From: Lysobacter sp.
GTDB lineage: Bacteria > Pseudomonadota > Gammaproteobacteria > Xanthomonadales > Xanthomonadaceae
NCBI GenBank assembly: GCA_004322525.1
Contig: SCUY01000083.1
Location: 1-40,736 of the forward strand
Direction: 5' to 3'
Length of the DNA: 40,736 nucleotides
This document shows positions 6,545-18,249 of this stretch, piece by piece. Positions within the stretch are counted from its first letter, which is position 1. Every line of letters begins with the position of its first letter. The notes under the pieces are model-generated. The model did not search any database. It saw nothing but the letters and a program-made list of their open reading frames with translations, and was not told the origin of the DNA. Made by a program: the position numbers and the translations under genes.

Positions 6545-8875
<2,331 letters not shown>

Positions 8876-8957
8876 TCACGATGCCGGCCACGGCGACGCG
8901 CGCGCGCATCACGCCGGCCGGGCCCGGCCTGCGACGGCCCGCCCGTACACTTGCCGC

Positions 8958-11138
8958 ATGGATGTCTCCCACCTGATCGACGCGCTCAACCCCGCGCAGC
9001 GCGAGGCCGTCTGCGCACCGCCCGGCCATTACCTCGTGCTGGCCGGTGCCGGCTCCGGCAAGACGCGAGTGCTCACCCATCGCATCGCCTGGCTCAACGA
9101 GGTCGAGCGCGTGCCGGTGCACGGCATCCTCGCGGTCACCTTCACCAACAAGGCCGCCGCGGAGATGCGGCATCGCGTCGACATGCAGCTGGTGAACGGC
9201 GCACGCGGCATGTGGCTCGGCACGTTCCATGGCCTCGCGCACCGGCTGCTGCGCCTGCACTTCCAGGAAGCGAAGCTGCCCGAGAGCTTCCAGGTGCTCG
9301 ATTCCGACGACCAGCTGCGGCTGGTCAAGCGCGTGCTGCAGGGCCTCGAACTCGACGACACGCGCTACCCGCCGCGGCAGGCCGCCTGGTGGATCAATGC
9401 GCGCAAGGACGAAGGCCGCCGCCCGCAGCACATCCAGGGCGGCGAGGACGAGTGGACCGACGTCATGCGTCGTATCTACGCCGCCTACCAGGAACGCTGC
9501 GACCGCGCCGGGCTGGTTGACTTCGCCGAGCTGCTGCTGCGCGCGCACGAACTGCTGCGCGACCAGGCGGCACTGCTGTCGCATTACCGCGCGAGGTTCA
9601 GGCAGATCCTGGTCGACGAATTCCAGGACACCAACGACATCCAGTACGCCTTCATCCGCGTGCTGGCCGGCGACACCGGCAACGTGTTCGTTGTCGGCGA
9701 TGACGATCAGGCGATCTACGGCTGGCGCGGCGCGAAGGTGGAGAACGTGCAGAAGTTCCTGCGCGATTTCAGCGAGGCGAAAACCATCCGCCTCGAGCAG
9801 AACTACCGCTCGACGTCGACCATTCTCGACGCCGCCAACGCGGTGATCACGCACAACCCCGGCCGGCTCGGCAAGAAGCTGTGGACCGAGGTCGGCGCCG
9901 GCGAATCGATCGACATGTATGCGGCCTACAACGAGATCGACGAGGCACGCTTCGTCGTCGAACGCATCAAGCAGTGGGTACAGGCCGGCGGCAGCTATCG
10001 CGATACGGCGATCCTGTATCGAAGCAATGCGCAGTCACGCGCGTTCGAGGAAGTGCTGATCGGCGAGCAGTTGCCCTATCGCGTCTACGGCGGCCTGCGC
10101 TTCTTCGAGCGTGCGGAAATCAAGGATTCGCTCGCCTACCTGCGCCTGATCGCCAATCGCGCCGACGACGCGGCGTTCGAGCGCGCGGTGAATACACCGA
10201 CGCGCGGCATCGGCGAGCGCACGCTGGACGAGGTGCGTCGCCTGGCGCGGGCGGAAGGTTTCCCGCTCGCCGTTGCTGCATTGAAGCTCGCGAACAGCAG
10301 CGCGCTGGCGGCACGTGCGCGCAACGCGCTGGCGACCTTCCTCAAGCTGATCGACGACCTGCAGATCGAGTGCATGGAGCGCAACCTGCCGGAGAAGATC
10401 GATCATGTGCTGCTGCGCTCGGGTCTGCGCGAGTTCTATGCGCGCGAGCAGAAGGGCCAGCTGGATTCGCGCATCGAGAACCTCGACGAACTCGTGTCGG
10501 TGGCGTCGCGCTTCAACTATCGCGAGGACGATGAAGAAGATCCGGAGCTGCCGGAACTCGTCGCTTTCCTGTCGTACGCCTCGCTCGAGGCCGGCGAAGG
10601 CCAGGCGCGCGCCAACGAGGACGGCGTGCAGCTGATGACGCTGCACAGCGCGAAAGGGCTCGAATTCCCGCTGGTGTTCCTGGTCGGGCTGGAGGAAGGC
10701 CTGTTCCCGAACAGCAAGTCGGCGGAGGAAGCCGGGCGAATGGAAGAGGAGCGCCGGCTGGCGTACGTGGGCATCACCCGTGCGCGCGAAAAGCTGGTGT
10801 TGAGTTATGCCGAGGCGCGACGCATCCACGGCATGGATATGTATGGCATGCCGTCACGGTTCGTGCGCGAGATCCCCACCGCGCTGGTGCACGAGGTGCG
10901 GCCGAAGGTGCAGGTGTCGCGGCCGGCGTACGGCGCCGGCAGCCGTCGTAGCGACAACGGACTGACCGAGACGCCGGCGATGCCGCTCGGCGCCAATGTG
11001 CGGCATCCCACGTTCGGCGCCGGCACCGTGATCGACGTCGAAGGCAGCGGCGCGCATGCACGCGTGCAGGTGAACTTCGACGATGTCGGCGCGAAATGGC
11101 TGGTGGCGGCGTTCGCGAATCTGCAGAAGGTCGGCTGA
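8958..11138 (+). CDS. uvrD: DNA helicase II UvrD (SF1A)
   Basis: LNPAQREAV, GAGSGKTRVL Walker A, TFTNKAAAEMR, VDEFQDTN, GDDDQAIYGWRGA, LEQNYRST, LMTLHSAKGLEF, YVGITRARE; 726 aa. Confidence 0.96.
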   Translation: MDVSHLIDALNPAQREAVCAPPGHYLVLAGAGSGKTRVLTHRIAWLNEVERVPVHGILAVTFTNKAAAEMRHRVDMQLVNGARGMWLGTFHGLAHRLLRLHFQEAKLPESFQVLDSDDQLRLVKRVLQGLELDDTRYPPRQAAWWINARKDEGRRPQHIQGGEDEWTDVMRRIYAAYQERCDRAGLVDFAELLLRAHELLRDQAALLSHYRARFRQILVDEFQDTNDIQYAFIRVLAGDTGNVFVVGDDDQAIYGWRGAKVENVQKFLRDFSEAKTIRLEQNYRSTSTILDAANAVITHNPGRLGKKLWTEVGAGESIDMYAAYNEIDEARFVVERIKQWVQAGGSYRDTAILYRSNAQSRAFEEVLIGEQLPYRVYGGLRFFERAEIKDSLAYLRLIANRADDAAFERAVNTPTRGIGERTLDEVRRLARAEGFPLAVAALKLANSSALAARARNALATFLKLIDDLQIECMERNLPEKIDHVLLRSGLREFYAREQKGQLDSRIENLDELVSVASRFNYREDDEEDPELPELVAFLSYASLEAGEGQARANEDGVQLMTLHSAKGLEFPLVFLVGLEEGLFPNSKSAEEAGRMEEERRLAYVGITRAREKLVLSYAEARRIHGMDMYGMPSRFVREIPTALVHEVRPKVQVSRPAYGAGSRRSDNGLTETPAMPLGANVRHPTFGAGTVIDVEGSGAHARVQVNFDDVGAKWLVAAFANLQKVG

Positions 11139-14701: not shown

Positions 14702-16504
14702 TCAATATTCCTTGAGCATCGCGCTCGCATCACGTCCGTCGAAATGCAGCCCATGGCCCGCTTCCGGGACCGGCGGTGGCTGGTACAACGAAACGCGATT
14801 GCGGCCGGCGACCTTCGACCGGTACATCGCCGCATCGGCATGCGCGATCAGCGCCTCGTAGTCGTACCCGGACATGGAGGAGCCCACCACGCCGATGCTG
14901 GTCGCAACGGGAAGCGCGCATCCGGCCGCATTCGCATCGATGTCCGCGATCGACCGGCGGCACTGCTCGGCGATGCGCAGGGCGGCATCGACATCGCAGT
15001 CGATCAGCGTCATGGCGAATTCCTCGCCGCCGATACGGCCGTAGAGATCGCCCTCGCGGCAATGCAGGCGGCCCACGCGCGCGACTTCACGCAGCACCCA
15101 GTCACCGGACGAATGGCCGCACTGGTCATTGATCTGCTTGAAGTGGTCCAGGTCAAGCAACAGCATGCTGACCGGGCGAGCCTGCTGCGAACATGCAAGC
15201 AGCGCCGCCTCCGATCGCGCGCGGAAATCCCGGCGGTTGCTCAGGCCGGTGAGGCTGTCGGTCTCGGCCAGCTGGCGCAGCCAGCCATGCGTACGGCGCG
15301 CGCGCCAGCCCCAGTAGGAGACCGACGCCGCCAGCACGACGAGCAGCGCCACGATCAGGCGGAAGTTCCACGCGGTGCGCTTGGCGACTTCCTGCTGCAG
15401 GCGCAGCAGCTGGTTCTGATTACTGAGCAGGGCGATCGACTGGTTCTTCTTGTTCAGCTCGTGCCGACTCAGCTGGAAGGCGTATTCGCGGGATTTGATG
15501 TCGTCAAGACGCGCCTTGTCGGCTTGGGCATAGCGACGGTAATGGTCGAGCGCCCCGGCGATGTCGCCGCGCTTGAGTGCGACGGTATAGAGCACGCGCT
15601 GTGCCACGACGCCGGCAAGGGAATTCGCATCGATGCCGCGATCGCGCACTATGGCCGTCGCTTGCGCATGCGCAGCGGCGAGATCGCCTTCTTCAAGCTG
15701 GTATTGCGCGAGCAACTGGCGAAGCTCGCCGACCAGGCGTGTGTAGCCGGTGCCCACAGCCTCGGGCAGGCTCGCCTCCAGCAGGGCGATGGCCTGCCGT
15801 CGGCGCCCTGTCCGTGCCCAGTAGTCGGCGAGGGTGGCGCGGATGGCATTGACGGCGATCGGCTCTCGCTGCGCCGCGCAGTCGGCGATCGCCTCGTGCA
15901 CGTCGGAGTCCTCGTCCAGAGAACGCCCCAGGCCATTGAGCGCCCGTACGCGCACCTGGCGGGCGAAGCAACGATTGCGTGGATCCGGCTGCTCAGCGAG
16001 CGCGCGTTCGGCTTCGGCGAGCGCCATGTCGAAATGGCCGAACTCGTTGTAGATCGTGCCGGCTACTCCCATGCTCGTTTGCCGCAGGCCCGCATCGGTG
16101 ACCCGTTCGCGGAGCATCAGTGCACGATCGAGATAGCGCAGACCGGTAAGATAGTCGCGGTTAAGTGCAGAGATATTCGTGATCAGCAGGGCCGCGCGGT
16201 ACTTGAGCTCGGGTTCCGGAGCCTGCTCGACCAGCGCCATCGCATCACCGAGTGCCGCCTGGTAATCACCGGTGATGGTGCGGCGGTAGTCTTGCAGAAG
16301 TCGCAGGTGCCGAAGCTCGCTGGGATCTGCTTCGCTCTTCCGGCGTTGAAGCTCGGCGAGCAGCGCCGTCATGTGTCGGGTGTTCGAACTCTTATGCGTA
16401 TCTGCCTCGCGCAGCAGTTCGCCAAATGGCGTTGCCCGAGCCTGCGCCGCGGGCAACGCCAAAATGATAACGAGACAGAATGTCCGTATTGCCTGAGCTG
16501 CCAC
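14702..16504 (-). CDS. GGDEF diguanylate cyclase with TPR-like periplasmic sensor region
   Basis: Signal peptide, helical repeat N-terminus, TM (FRLIVALLVVLAASVSYWGW), TDSLTGLSNRRDF, GRIGGEEF catalytic motif, RxxD I-site (REGD) five residues upstream of GGEEF. Confidence 0.93.
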   Translation of the reverse strand: MAAQAIRTFCLVIILALPAAQARATPFGELLREADTHKSSNTRHMTALLAELQRRKSEADPSELRHLRLLQDYRRTITGDYQAALGDAMALVEQAPEPELKYRAALLITNISALNRDYLTGLRYLDRALMLRERVTDAGLRQTSMGVAGTIYNEFGHFDMALAEAERALAEQPDPRNRCFARQVRVRALNGLGRSLDEDSDVHEAIADCAAQREPIAVNAIRATLADYWARTGRRRQAIALLEASLPEAVGTGYTRLVGELRQLLAQYQLEEGDLAAAHAQATAIVRDRGIDANSLAGVVAQRVLYTVALKRGDIAGALDHYRRYAQADKARLDDIKSREYAFQLSRHELNKKNQSIALLSNQNQLLRLQQEVAKRTAWNFRLIVALLVVLAASVSYWGWRARRTHGWLRQLAETDSLTGLSNRRDFRARSEAALLACSQQARPVSMLLLDLDHFKQINDQCGHSSGDWVLREVARVGRLHCREGDLYGRIGGEEFAMTLIDCDVDAALRIAEQCRRSIADIDANAAGCALPVATSIGVVGSSMSGYDYEALIAHADAAMYRSKVAGRNRVSLYQPPPVPEAGHGLHFDGRDASAMLKEY

Positions 16505-16560: not shown

Positions 16561-16830
16561 CTAGCCGGCGAACGCGTCCGGCGCCTCGGCCGGTTCTGGC
16601 TGGTCATCCACCGGGCCATCTTCCCGTGCTGGCTCTTCCTGATCAGGCGCATAGACCACGCATGCCATGAAGGCACGCCCGCTCATGGCTGCGGCCAAAG
16701 CCGGAGCATCGCCTGTGCGGAATGCGGCGCGCGCTGCCGGATCGAGAGACATCGCCAGATCGGCGGCTGCCCCCTCCCCGGCGTACGGGGTGCGGGCGAG
16801 GTGTTCAAGAAGAGAGATCGCGTCGTACAT
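16561..16830 (-). CDS. Putative split-borosin precursor peptide (SonA-like borosin-binding domain plus C-terminal core/tail), 89 aa
   Basis: MYDAISLLEHLARTPYAGEGAAADLAMSLDPAARAAFRTGDAPALAAAMSGRAFMACVVYAPDQEEPAREDGPVDDQPEPAEAPDAFAG; SD GAAGGA 5-6 nt before ATG; starts 26 nt after the methyltransferase stop; helical 'DPxAxxxFxxGDxxALxxAMSG' followed by a hydrophobic strand resembles SonA organisation. Confidence 0.8.
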   Translation of the reverse strand: MYDAISLLEHLARTPYAGEGAAADLAMSLDPAARAAFRTGDAPALAAAMSGRAFMACVVYAPDQEEPAREDGPVDDQPEPAEAPDAFAG

Positions 16831-16856: not shown

Positions 16857-17678
16857 TCAAACGGGTCGGGTTGTCTTCGGCGTGGTCGCAGATAGCCGGG
16901 CGAGCCGCATGCGCATCGCCTCGTCGGCGACGAGCGCATGCGCGGGCGGGACGATCAGGGTGGATTGCATGGTCAGCTTGCTGTCGGGCAGGTCCGCGAG
17001 CACCACGCATTCGATGCGCGGCGACACGACGGCTGACGTTGCTGCCTCGTAGATCGTGACGATGTGGTCTGCGGGGTAGTCGAGAAGCAGCCGCTCCACG
17101 AGCACCTGGCGGTGCGCGGGCGTGGTCGCGAAACGCAGGCAGGCCGGATCCCCGACGATGCCGACCTGCCACAGCACGAGATAGGCGGACGCATCGATGC
17201 GGCGCGGATACAGCAGGAGTTGCGTGGCTTCGTAGTGCTGGCAGCCGAAACGGCCCGGGTCGATGCCCATGTCGGCGTAGAGGCAGTCCTCCGCCGAGAC
17301 ACCGGGTTCCATGGCTGCGCCGAAGCCTTCGCGCCGTGCCTGCGCGATCGCATCGTGGGGTACCTGCGCGAACACGCCGGGATGCCCGTAGAACGCGCCG
17401 CAGACACGTCGGCCGCGACGGACTTCATCCAGCATCACGTCGGCCATCTCGCGATAGGTCTCACGGCGCGACTTGCCCTCGGCATAGTAGGGCTGGAGGC
17501 TGATCGCATCCGGTCGCATGGTCTGCAGCCACAGCTCGACGAGCGCATCGGAAGCCGCGACAAACACCACATCGGCCTGCTCGATGTAGGCCCGTGCGCG
17601 CGGGCCCAGATGGGCGCCGAGCATCATTCCCACACCTACGCAGGCGAGGTGGCCCGGCAGCTGTGCGGCGGCGGTCAT
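16857..17678 (-). CDS. Split-borosin peptide alpha-N-methyltransferase (tetrapyrrole methylase fold, SonM-like), 273 aa
   Basis: MTAAAQLPGHLACVGVGMMLGAHLGPRARAYIEQADVVFVAASDALVELWLQTMRPDAISLQPYYAEGKSRRETYREM...GAFYGHPGVFAQVPHDAIAQARREGFGAAMEPGVSAEDCLYADMGIDPGRFGCQHYEATQLLLYPRRIDASAYLVLWQVGIVGD...; YYAEGKSRRETY, FYGHPGVF, MEPGVSAEDCL(Y)ADxGIDPG are hallmarks of borosin-type enzymes. Confidence 0.9.
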   Translation of the reverse strand: MTAAAQLPGHLACVGVGMMLGAHLGPRARAYIEQADVVFVAASDALVELWLQTMRPDAISLQPYYAEGKSRRETYREMADVMLDEVRRGRRVCGAFYGHPGVFAQVPHDAIAQARREGFGAAMEPGVSAEDCLYADMGIDPGRFGCQHYEATQLLLYPRRIDASAYLVLWQVGIVGDPACLRFATTPAHRQVLVERLLLDYPADHIVTIYEAATSAVVSPRIECVVLADLPDSKLTMQSTLIVPPAHALVADEAMRMRLARLSATTPKTTRPV

Positions 17679-17709: not shown

Positions 17710-18249
17710 CTACCCGTCGGCCGCCCCCATGCCAACCGGCCGACGCCAGCGGTCGTGGTCGAGAATCCACCGGGCGGTGCCGGGGCGATCGGGCGGAGCG
17801 TCCACGAAACCCTGCGCGCAAAGAAGCCGGCGCGACATCCGCTCATTCGGGCCGGCCTGGCACATGCCGGACAGACGGTCGATCGCCAGGTCGTCGAAGG
17901 CATGAGTGACCAGGGCTTCGATCACCTCGTGCGAATAGCGCGCGTTCCACGCGGCGGGTAGGAGCATGAGCCCCATCTCGGTGTCAGGCGCGCGATGCAG
18001 AAGGGCCCCAATACCCACATCGCGCCGGGTGGAGCGTTCTGTAACCGCCCAGACCCGGCATGCCGGCTCGTCGGCCTCATTTGCCCCAACGACGGCACGG
18101 AACGCCCGTGATGCCGCGCCCTCATCAAGTGGCGGGGCGATGCGGGCCATGACGCGCGGGCAGCAATACAGCGCGCGATAGAGACCCTCATGGGCGTCGA
18201 TGAGAGGCGAGAGGTCAAGGTTCGCGGTGGAGAGCGTGGGCAGCGGCAT
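17710..18249 (-). CDS. GNAT family N-acetyltransferase (RimJ/RimL-like)
   Basis: MPLPTLSTANLDLSPLIDAHEGLYRALYCCPRVM...EMGLMLLPAAWNARYSHEVIEALVTHAFDDLAIDRLSGMCQAGPNERMSRRLLCAQGF; 31-nt gap to the methyltransferase gene. Confidence 0.75.
   Translation of the reverse strand: MPLPTLSTANLDLSPLIDAHEGLYRALYCCPRVMARIAPPLDEGAASRAFRAVVGANEADEPACRVWAVTERSTRRDVGIGALLHRAPDTEMGLMLLPAAWNARYSHEVIEALVTHAFDDLAIDRLSGMCQAGPNERMSRRLLCAQGFVDAPPDRPGTARWILDHDRWRRPVGMGAADG

Follow-up and report, generated by a model that had tools for sequence, protein, structure and literature searches.

A probable split borosin pair with an acid-tailed precursor next to a TPR-GGDEF gene in Lysobacter

The small open reading frame described here, and the methyltransferase gene that adjoins it, almost certainly encode a split (type IV-like) borosin pair, as judged from homology and gene context. 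They lie in a stretch of 40,736 nucleotides of Lysobacter sp. DNA that was analysed as a whole (the window), on a contig of a 2.4 Mb genome in 318 contigs. The acidic extension that ends the precursor is, on comparison with its orthologues, probably a follower peptide situated past the core, and there is a reasonable likelihood that the processed peptide acts on the TPR-GGDEF protein encoded by the neighbouring gene. The best explanation of the whole locus combines the pair, the follower tail and the sensing of the peptide by a cognate cyclase, and we regard it as having an even chance of being correct in all its parts. The features on which this reading is built are listed in Table 1.

Table 1. 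Position and supporting evidence of the borosin locus features in the window.
Feature	Coordinates	Strand	Evidence
Signal peptide/TM - TPR - TM - GGEEF diguanylate cyclase with RxxD I-site; proposed peptide partner (start codon not proven)	14702..16504	-	Pfam GGDEF 1.3e-38; hydrophobic segments; gene order; co-occurrence; TPR fold
Probable borosin precursor, 89 aa plus stop	16561..16830	-	ORF; ATG start; translation agrees with the earlier note
Proposed follower: acidic tail rich in Pro (residues 64-89), predicted as coil	16564..16641	-	AF2; tail composition; dN/dS
Putative core strand FMACVVYAPD, residues 54-63	16642..16671	-	SonA-based alignment; strand conservation among orthologues
Borosin-binding-domain-like leader, residues 1-52, four predicted helices	16675..16830	-	AF2; SonA homology
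Alpha-N-methyltransferase homologous to SonM; start codon unproven	16857..17678	-	phmmer E 8e-70 to SonM 7ltc; active-site residues
GNAT acetyltransferase (Acetyltransf_3) found repeatedly in such clusters; start approximate	17710..18249	-	Pfam 1.2e-13

The precursor and its methyltransferase

The earlier note, made from the DNA letters without database searches, had identified a SonA-like precursor adjoining a methyltransferase (MT) of the SonM kind, and comparison with proteins of known structure bears this out. A profile built from 37 orthologues of the precursor retrieves SonA chains as its top seven matches in the PDB (E 2.5e-4 to 1.9e-3), the next match standing at 0.29. The family profile is needed for this match because a PDB search with the precursor as a single sequence gave none. 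Searched against the PDB with phmmer, the MT matches SonM (7ltc) at E 8e-70, with OphMA-type enzymes next; corrin or siroheme enzymes match it weakly. The SonM residues Y58, R67, Y71, Y93, F99 and W166, whose roles have been described (PMC8429565), are all kept in the window MT as Y67, R73, Y77, Y99, F105 and W172. The locus displays the features of a split borosin, namely discrete MT and precursor genes, a SonM-like MT, a SonA-homologous leader and a hydrophobic core C-terminal to the leader. In contrast to SonA, the core does not lie at the very C-terminal end, a position that is not a formal criterion of the class. The window precursor carries only one strand and hence is not a multi-core precursor; four cores are found only in L027/L112.

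The AF2 model of the precursor (mean pLDDT 80) features helices at residues 4-13, 19-28, 31-39 and 42-50, followed by coil beyond residue 50. The hydrophobic strand is numbered F54, M55, A56, C57, V58, V59, Y60, A61, P62 and D63. The methylated residues of SonA, L63 and I65 (PMC8429565), align with V58 and Y60 in the HMM alignment. This register is soft because few residues at the alignment end carry it. Backbone N-methylation at V58 and Y60 is a best guess, predicted from the two SonA positions; 29 residues come after Y60, the I65 equivalent in this soft register.

It is extremely improbable that the frame is no borosin gene at all, being either spurious or coding for an acidic protein of another kind next to a methylase of the tetrapyrrole type. 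Such a reading can draw on the failure of Pfam and NCBIfam to provide a family for the frame, or anything meaningful for 37 precursors, on the empty single-sequence search of the PDB and on the Foldseek search of the small model against the PDB, which is not significant (SonA chains make up four of the six matches, but at E > 5). It is opposed by the SonA homology detected by profile, the purifying selection on the precursor, the strict gene context and an MT whose best match is SonM and not a corrin enzyme.

At E <= 1e-3 the MT is found in 52 of the 101 relatives searched; five of these matches are weak (E 3e-5 to 6e-4), and in two genomes such a match is the only one. It is present also in 36 loci of named genomes, the nearest of which belong to Lysobacter, Luteimonas and Rhodanobacter. 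Note that two MT domains share one open frame of 545 aa at G498:C52:3838-5451 and G543:C345:2767-4368, perhaps a tandem-MT borosin enzyme.

The acidic tail

The segment D63-G89 comprises 27 residues, of which 10 are D/E and 5 are P, exactly as counted in the earlier note. The probability of at least 10 acidic residues in 27 is 7e-4 at an assumed base rate of 12%. Far stronger evidence than this single-gene probability is provided by the family-wide mean D/E content, which is 38% in the tails vs 15.5% in the N-terminal domain. The precursors were recovered by iterated HMM searches that yielded 90 rows, including two that give a second start for a gene already tabulated. Their tails are 7% hydrophobic and their core half hydrophobic. 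Tails of at least 10 aa are present in 78 of the 90 rows (the full set of rows has a median of 26), and a net charge of -3 or lower is carried by 69 of these 78. The description of the tail as atypically long thus holds relative to SonA, whose PDB chain of 71 aa indeed ends a few residues (6) beyond I65 as the earlier note has it, but not relative to orthologues of the same order. In the MT tree a single clade (support 96/93, 72 rows) unites all acid-tailed loci of the order, and both SonM and a tail-less clade (100/100, 11 rows) lie outside it; L104, the one row placed elsewhere, is labelled by tail length only and its tail is not acidic. The tail is a clade trait, and not an oddity of the window gene, because the acid-tailed loci of the order share one MT clade.

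Orthologue comparison, put forward earlier as the test that could refute the assignment, finds the hydrophobic strand (ACVVYA in the window) conserved in kind: Cys57 is present in 55 of 74 tailed precursors and is followed in the pattern by P/A and often D/E. Pooled dN/dS over 13 pairs amounts to 0.13 in the tail (95% 0.07-0.20), 0.12 in the core and 0.28 in the leader, values to be read with the near-saturation of pS (0.63) and with the fact that keeping acidity alone would also lower the ratio of the tail. By this measure the tail is under purifying selection. The motif [DE]xPxx[DE] occurs in 44 of 78 tails against a shuffle mean of 24, shared ancestry being still contained in this count. 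The candidate role of a C-terminal AA as ClpXP-like degron was rejected, only 16 of the 90 precursors ending in AA.

The tail varies strongly in the order while the cassette around it is unchanged. L005_2350 ends in CFVFVPD and L057_4883 in CMVMTPD, both in clusters that also contain a tailed paralogue, and the DNA beyond their stops encodes no acidic tail. Reduced relatives terminate in VPDDDDDSEA or FPDDDDED, and one family has tails of few Asp only. In L052, L055, L059 and L062 the tail is Lys/Ala/Pro-rich and histone H1-like (e.g., PPKKKAPAKKKPAKKAPAKK), not acidic, while that of L177 is poly-Pro. The four-core precursor of L027/L112 repeats the strand followed by TPE(E/L), with short spacers and without a long tail. 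This natural range (none, DDDD, about 26 acidic residues, Lys-rich, poly-Pro) offers ready-made variants for the study of tail function.

The L112 locus (also L027, L092) deserves a separate description. Its four-core precursor (L112:5402-5833, + strand) has the cores SCLVFTPEE, YFCWVATPEEE, YFCAVNTPELE and YFCGVLTPEELA. It is accompanied by an MT, a GNAT, a C39-peptidase ABC exporter (7037-9181) and an HlyD protein, and no GGDEF is found within the 12.5 kb examined.

All observations on the tail would be accommodated by a constrained, disordered follower placed after a core that ends near P62-D63. Such an acidic follower would keep the hydrophobic strand soluble and accessible, and would be trimmed at or after P62-D63, presumably on peptide release; it would serve neither as product nor as the principal recognition element. 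The earlier note had offered follower, recognition element and product side by side. The follower is favoured over the other two because natural tail-less, Lys-/Pro-rich and four-core precursors exist. A neutral appendage is disfavoured because of the tail dN/dS of 0.13, and so is an acidic recognition element needed by every MT because tail-less, Lys-rich and poly-Pro precursors share the same clusters. The tail might still belong to the mature product, or be what the TPR sensor reads, with the methylated strand then forming one end of a longer peptide. We consider this unlikely. The dN/dS of the tail is as low as that of the core and tail charge shows a weak negative correlation with TPR charge (Spearman -0.33, p 0.008). 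But phylogeny confounds this correlation, TPRs from the Lys-tailed clade depart from the mean by no more than about 1 SD, and tail length (0 to 41 aa) and composition (acidic, then Lys-rich, then Pro-rich) shift beside a constant cassette. Still less credit is given to a role of the tail in docking to, or accessory recognition by, the MT or the GNAT. The tail is indeed clade-specific, matching one MT clade, and a GNAT is present in most tailed clusters; yet closely related MTs adjoin tail-less and charge-reversed precursors, SonM binds SonA via the leader without such a tail (PMC8429565), and the tailed loci L032, L034, L041, L058 and L060 have no GNAT in the stretch examined.

Association with the TPR-GGDEF gene

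The usual order of genes, all on one strand, is GNAT, MT, precursor and TPR-TM-GGDEF in nearly every locus. The GNAT gene lies beside the MT or precursor gene in most loci, and between them in some. A TPR/GGDEF gene comes after the precursor in 80 of 82 testable cases; in the window genome, which has 34 GGDEF domains in 2.4 Mb, the chance expectation is about 1.5% if roughly 2200 genes are assumed. Gene order across the loci shows that this gene, which the earlier note does not name as a partner, is the tightest association of the precursor. The TPR sensor, searched for with a profile of the sensor part, and the MT also co-occur across genomes. In 150 members of the order that are at least 90% complete, 69 have both, 3 the MT only, 9 the TPR only and 69 neither (Fisher 1e-28), while 41 relatives distribute as 24, 1, 1 and 15 in the same sequence (p 4e-9). 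These tests treat genomes as independent and kinship inflates their p values, but both states occur inside single families. No conserved protease or exporter gene is found in the usual cluster; a C39-peptidase ABC exporter and an HlyD protein are present only in the multi-core relative L112.

Precursor and TPR-GGDEF genes also travel as a unit. Repeated cassettes of the two are found beside one MT in L036, L040, L043, L049, L113, L158, L159 and L177; those of L158, L159 and L177 form tandem arrays around it, with three precursors and five TPRs in L158. Cassettes without an MT in the stretch examined are present in L146, L160, L161, L162, L164, L166, L167, L169 and L170, some with a GNAT upstream; the nearest MT on the L146 contig is 87 kb away. 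In L085-L089 and L091 a SonM-like MT is fused to the C-terminus of TPR-TM-GGDEF, and in most cases a gene for a short SonA-like precursor immediately precedes the fusion. The GGDEF and MT genes of the window are separate and not fused. The idea that every TPR-GGDEF has its own precursor was dismissed, no recognisable one being found beside L152-L155, L163, L165, L168, L172, L173 and L176. Strong hairpins are found directly 3' of some precursor stops (e.g., L004, L005, L006, L035, L057, L068). Hairpins after precursor genes reach z < -2 in 15 of 88 cases, the window value being -1.9. These figures are only suggestive; the hairpins perhaps set the precursor:cyclase ratio.

The TPR-GGDEF protein of the window has an N-terminal hydrophobic segment, a second one at about 377-400, an intact GGEEF and an RxxD I-site. 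The TPR part should be periplasmic because of the placement of the hydrophobic segments. Its AF2 model (pLDDT 94.5) has as best PDB match the pheromone-bound Rap 4gyo (E 1e-5, TM 0.62), with RapF, a phage Rap and LGN close behind; APC/C subunits match as well. The Rap-like fold is support and not proof because TPR superhelices are generic. Two cysteines, C155 and C185 of window:15365-16432 (- strand), are invariant in 33 of 33 TPR sensor sequences, and this conservation would fit a periplasmic disulfide. Note that the precursor strand likewise carries a conserved Cys.

In the pathway that we propose, the leader would dock the precursor on the MT, which would N-methylate the strand at or near V58/Y60. 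Leader and tail would then be removed and the peptide released, to be sensed in a Rap-like manner by the predicted periplasmic TPR of the cognate cyclase. This would set the c-di-GMP output of the cyclase. Some findings speak against signalling: the precursor opens with the leader and shows no obvious secretion signal, although a periplasmic position is predicted for the TPR; the usual cluster offers no conserved protease or exporter gene; nine genomes have the TPR with no MT found; and some TPR-GGDEFs are without a recognisable precursor. The link between precursor and GGDEF may alternatively reflect operon co-inheritance or cytoplasmic co-regulation, the peptide being a secreted metabolite whose production the GGDEF protein reports or regulates. 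The C39-peptidase ABC exporter and HlyD protein that take the place of GGDEF in L112 are in line with that account. We nevertheless judge it to be a minority prospect, as the MT-less cassettes and the co-duplication of precursor and TPR-GGDEF exceed operon inertia, the TPR sensor is nearly restricted to borosin genomes and the MT is fused to TPR-GGDEF in another clade.

Sensing by the cognate cyclase can be extended, at somewhat less than even confidence, to a general form of peptide signalling in Gram-negative bacteria. Backbone-N-methylated peptides of ribosomal origin would be specific ligands of membrane TPR-GGDEF proteins; their cassettes would multiply and scatter, one MT serving many precursors in trans, and the acidic follower would hold the precursor inactive or soluble until release. 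Backbone N-methylation raises membrane permeability and protease resistance. If true, this would be the first signalling role for borosins and would provide a ligand for the sensor class of the window TPR. Should the cassette reading be right, hundreds of Lysobacterales genomes carry borosins with a target evident from the genome, the adjacent TPR-GGDEF. The role of borosins would then be directly testable, and backbone N-methylation would be linked with a bacterial second messenger.

Relation to known systems

Split borosins are already known, and a borosin scheme in print already includes GGDEF (Fig. 1 legend of PMC11395268). At the time of their description no type IV pathway had been assigned a final natural product (PMC8429565), and the literature searched gives no function for these pathways. 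Neither a dedicated TPR-GGDEF partner, nor orphan precursor-receptor cassettes, nor an acidic follower is described in that literature; key genome-mining papers lie outside the search and an earlier description is possible.

The closest characterized system is SonM/SonA of Shewanella oneidensis (PMC8429565), which has in common with the window pair the separate MT and precursor genes, the MT active-site residues, the homologous leader domain and the hydrophobic core C-terminal to it. The two differ in the number of residues after the second methylated site (6 in SonA vs 29 in the window precursor, in the soft register), in the conserved Cys that the window family has at the position of SonA Y62, in the GNAT and TPR-GGDEF context and in the MT, which belongs to a clade apart from that of SonM. 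The GGDEF domain drawn in the borosin scheme of PMC11395268 resembles the window locus in associating a borosin MT with GGDEF, as do the fused proteins of L085-L089 and L091. As far as the legend of that scheme goes, the window differs in that GGDEF has a gene of its own, immediately 3' of the precursor gene. Residues extending well past the core are known from types VII/VIII and cluster-4 borosins, which have about 160 aa after the potential core (PMC11395268) vs about 26 aa of low complexity here. The RRNPP/Rap-Phr systems of Firmicutes share with the window locus the pairing of a gene for a short peptide of secreted type with one for a TPR receptor, and the Rap-like predicted fold of the receptor, a likeness that implies no membership at the sequence level. 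Their receptors are cytoplasmic and act through phosphatase activity or DNA binding, whereas in the window a diguanylate cyclase of the membrane takes the receptor's place. Its signal peptide, TM segment and periplasmic TPR are predictions and its output is GGDEF, and its peptide is, by homology to SonA, probably backbone-N-methylated.
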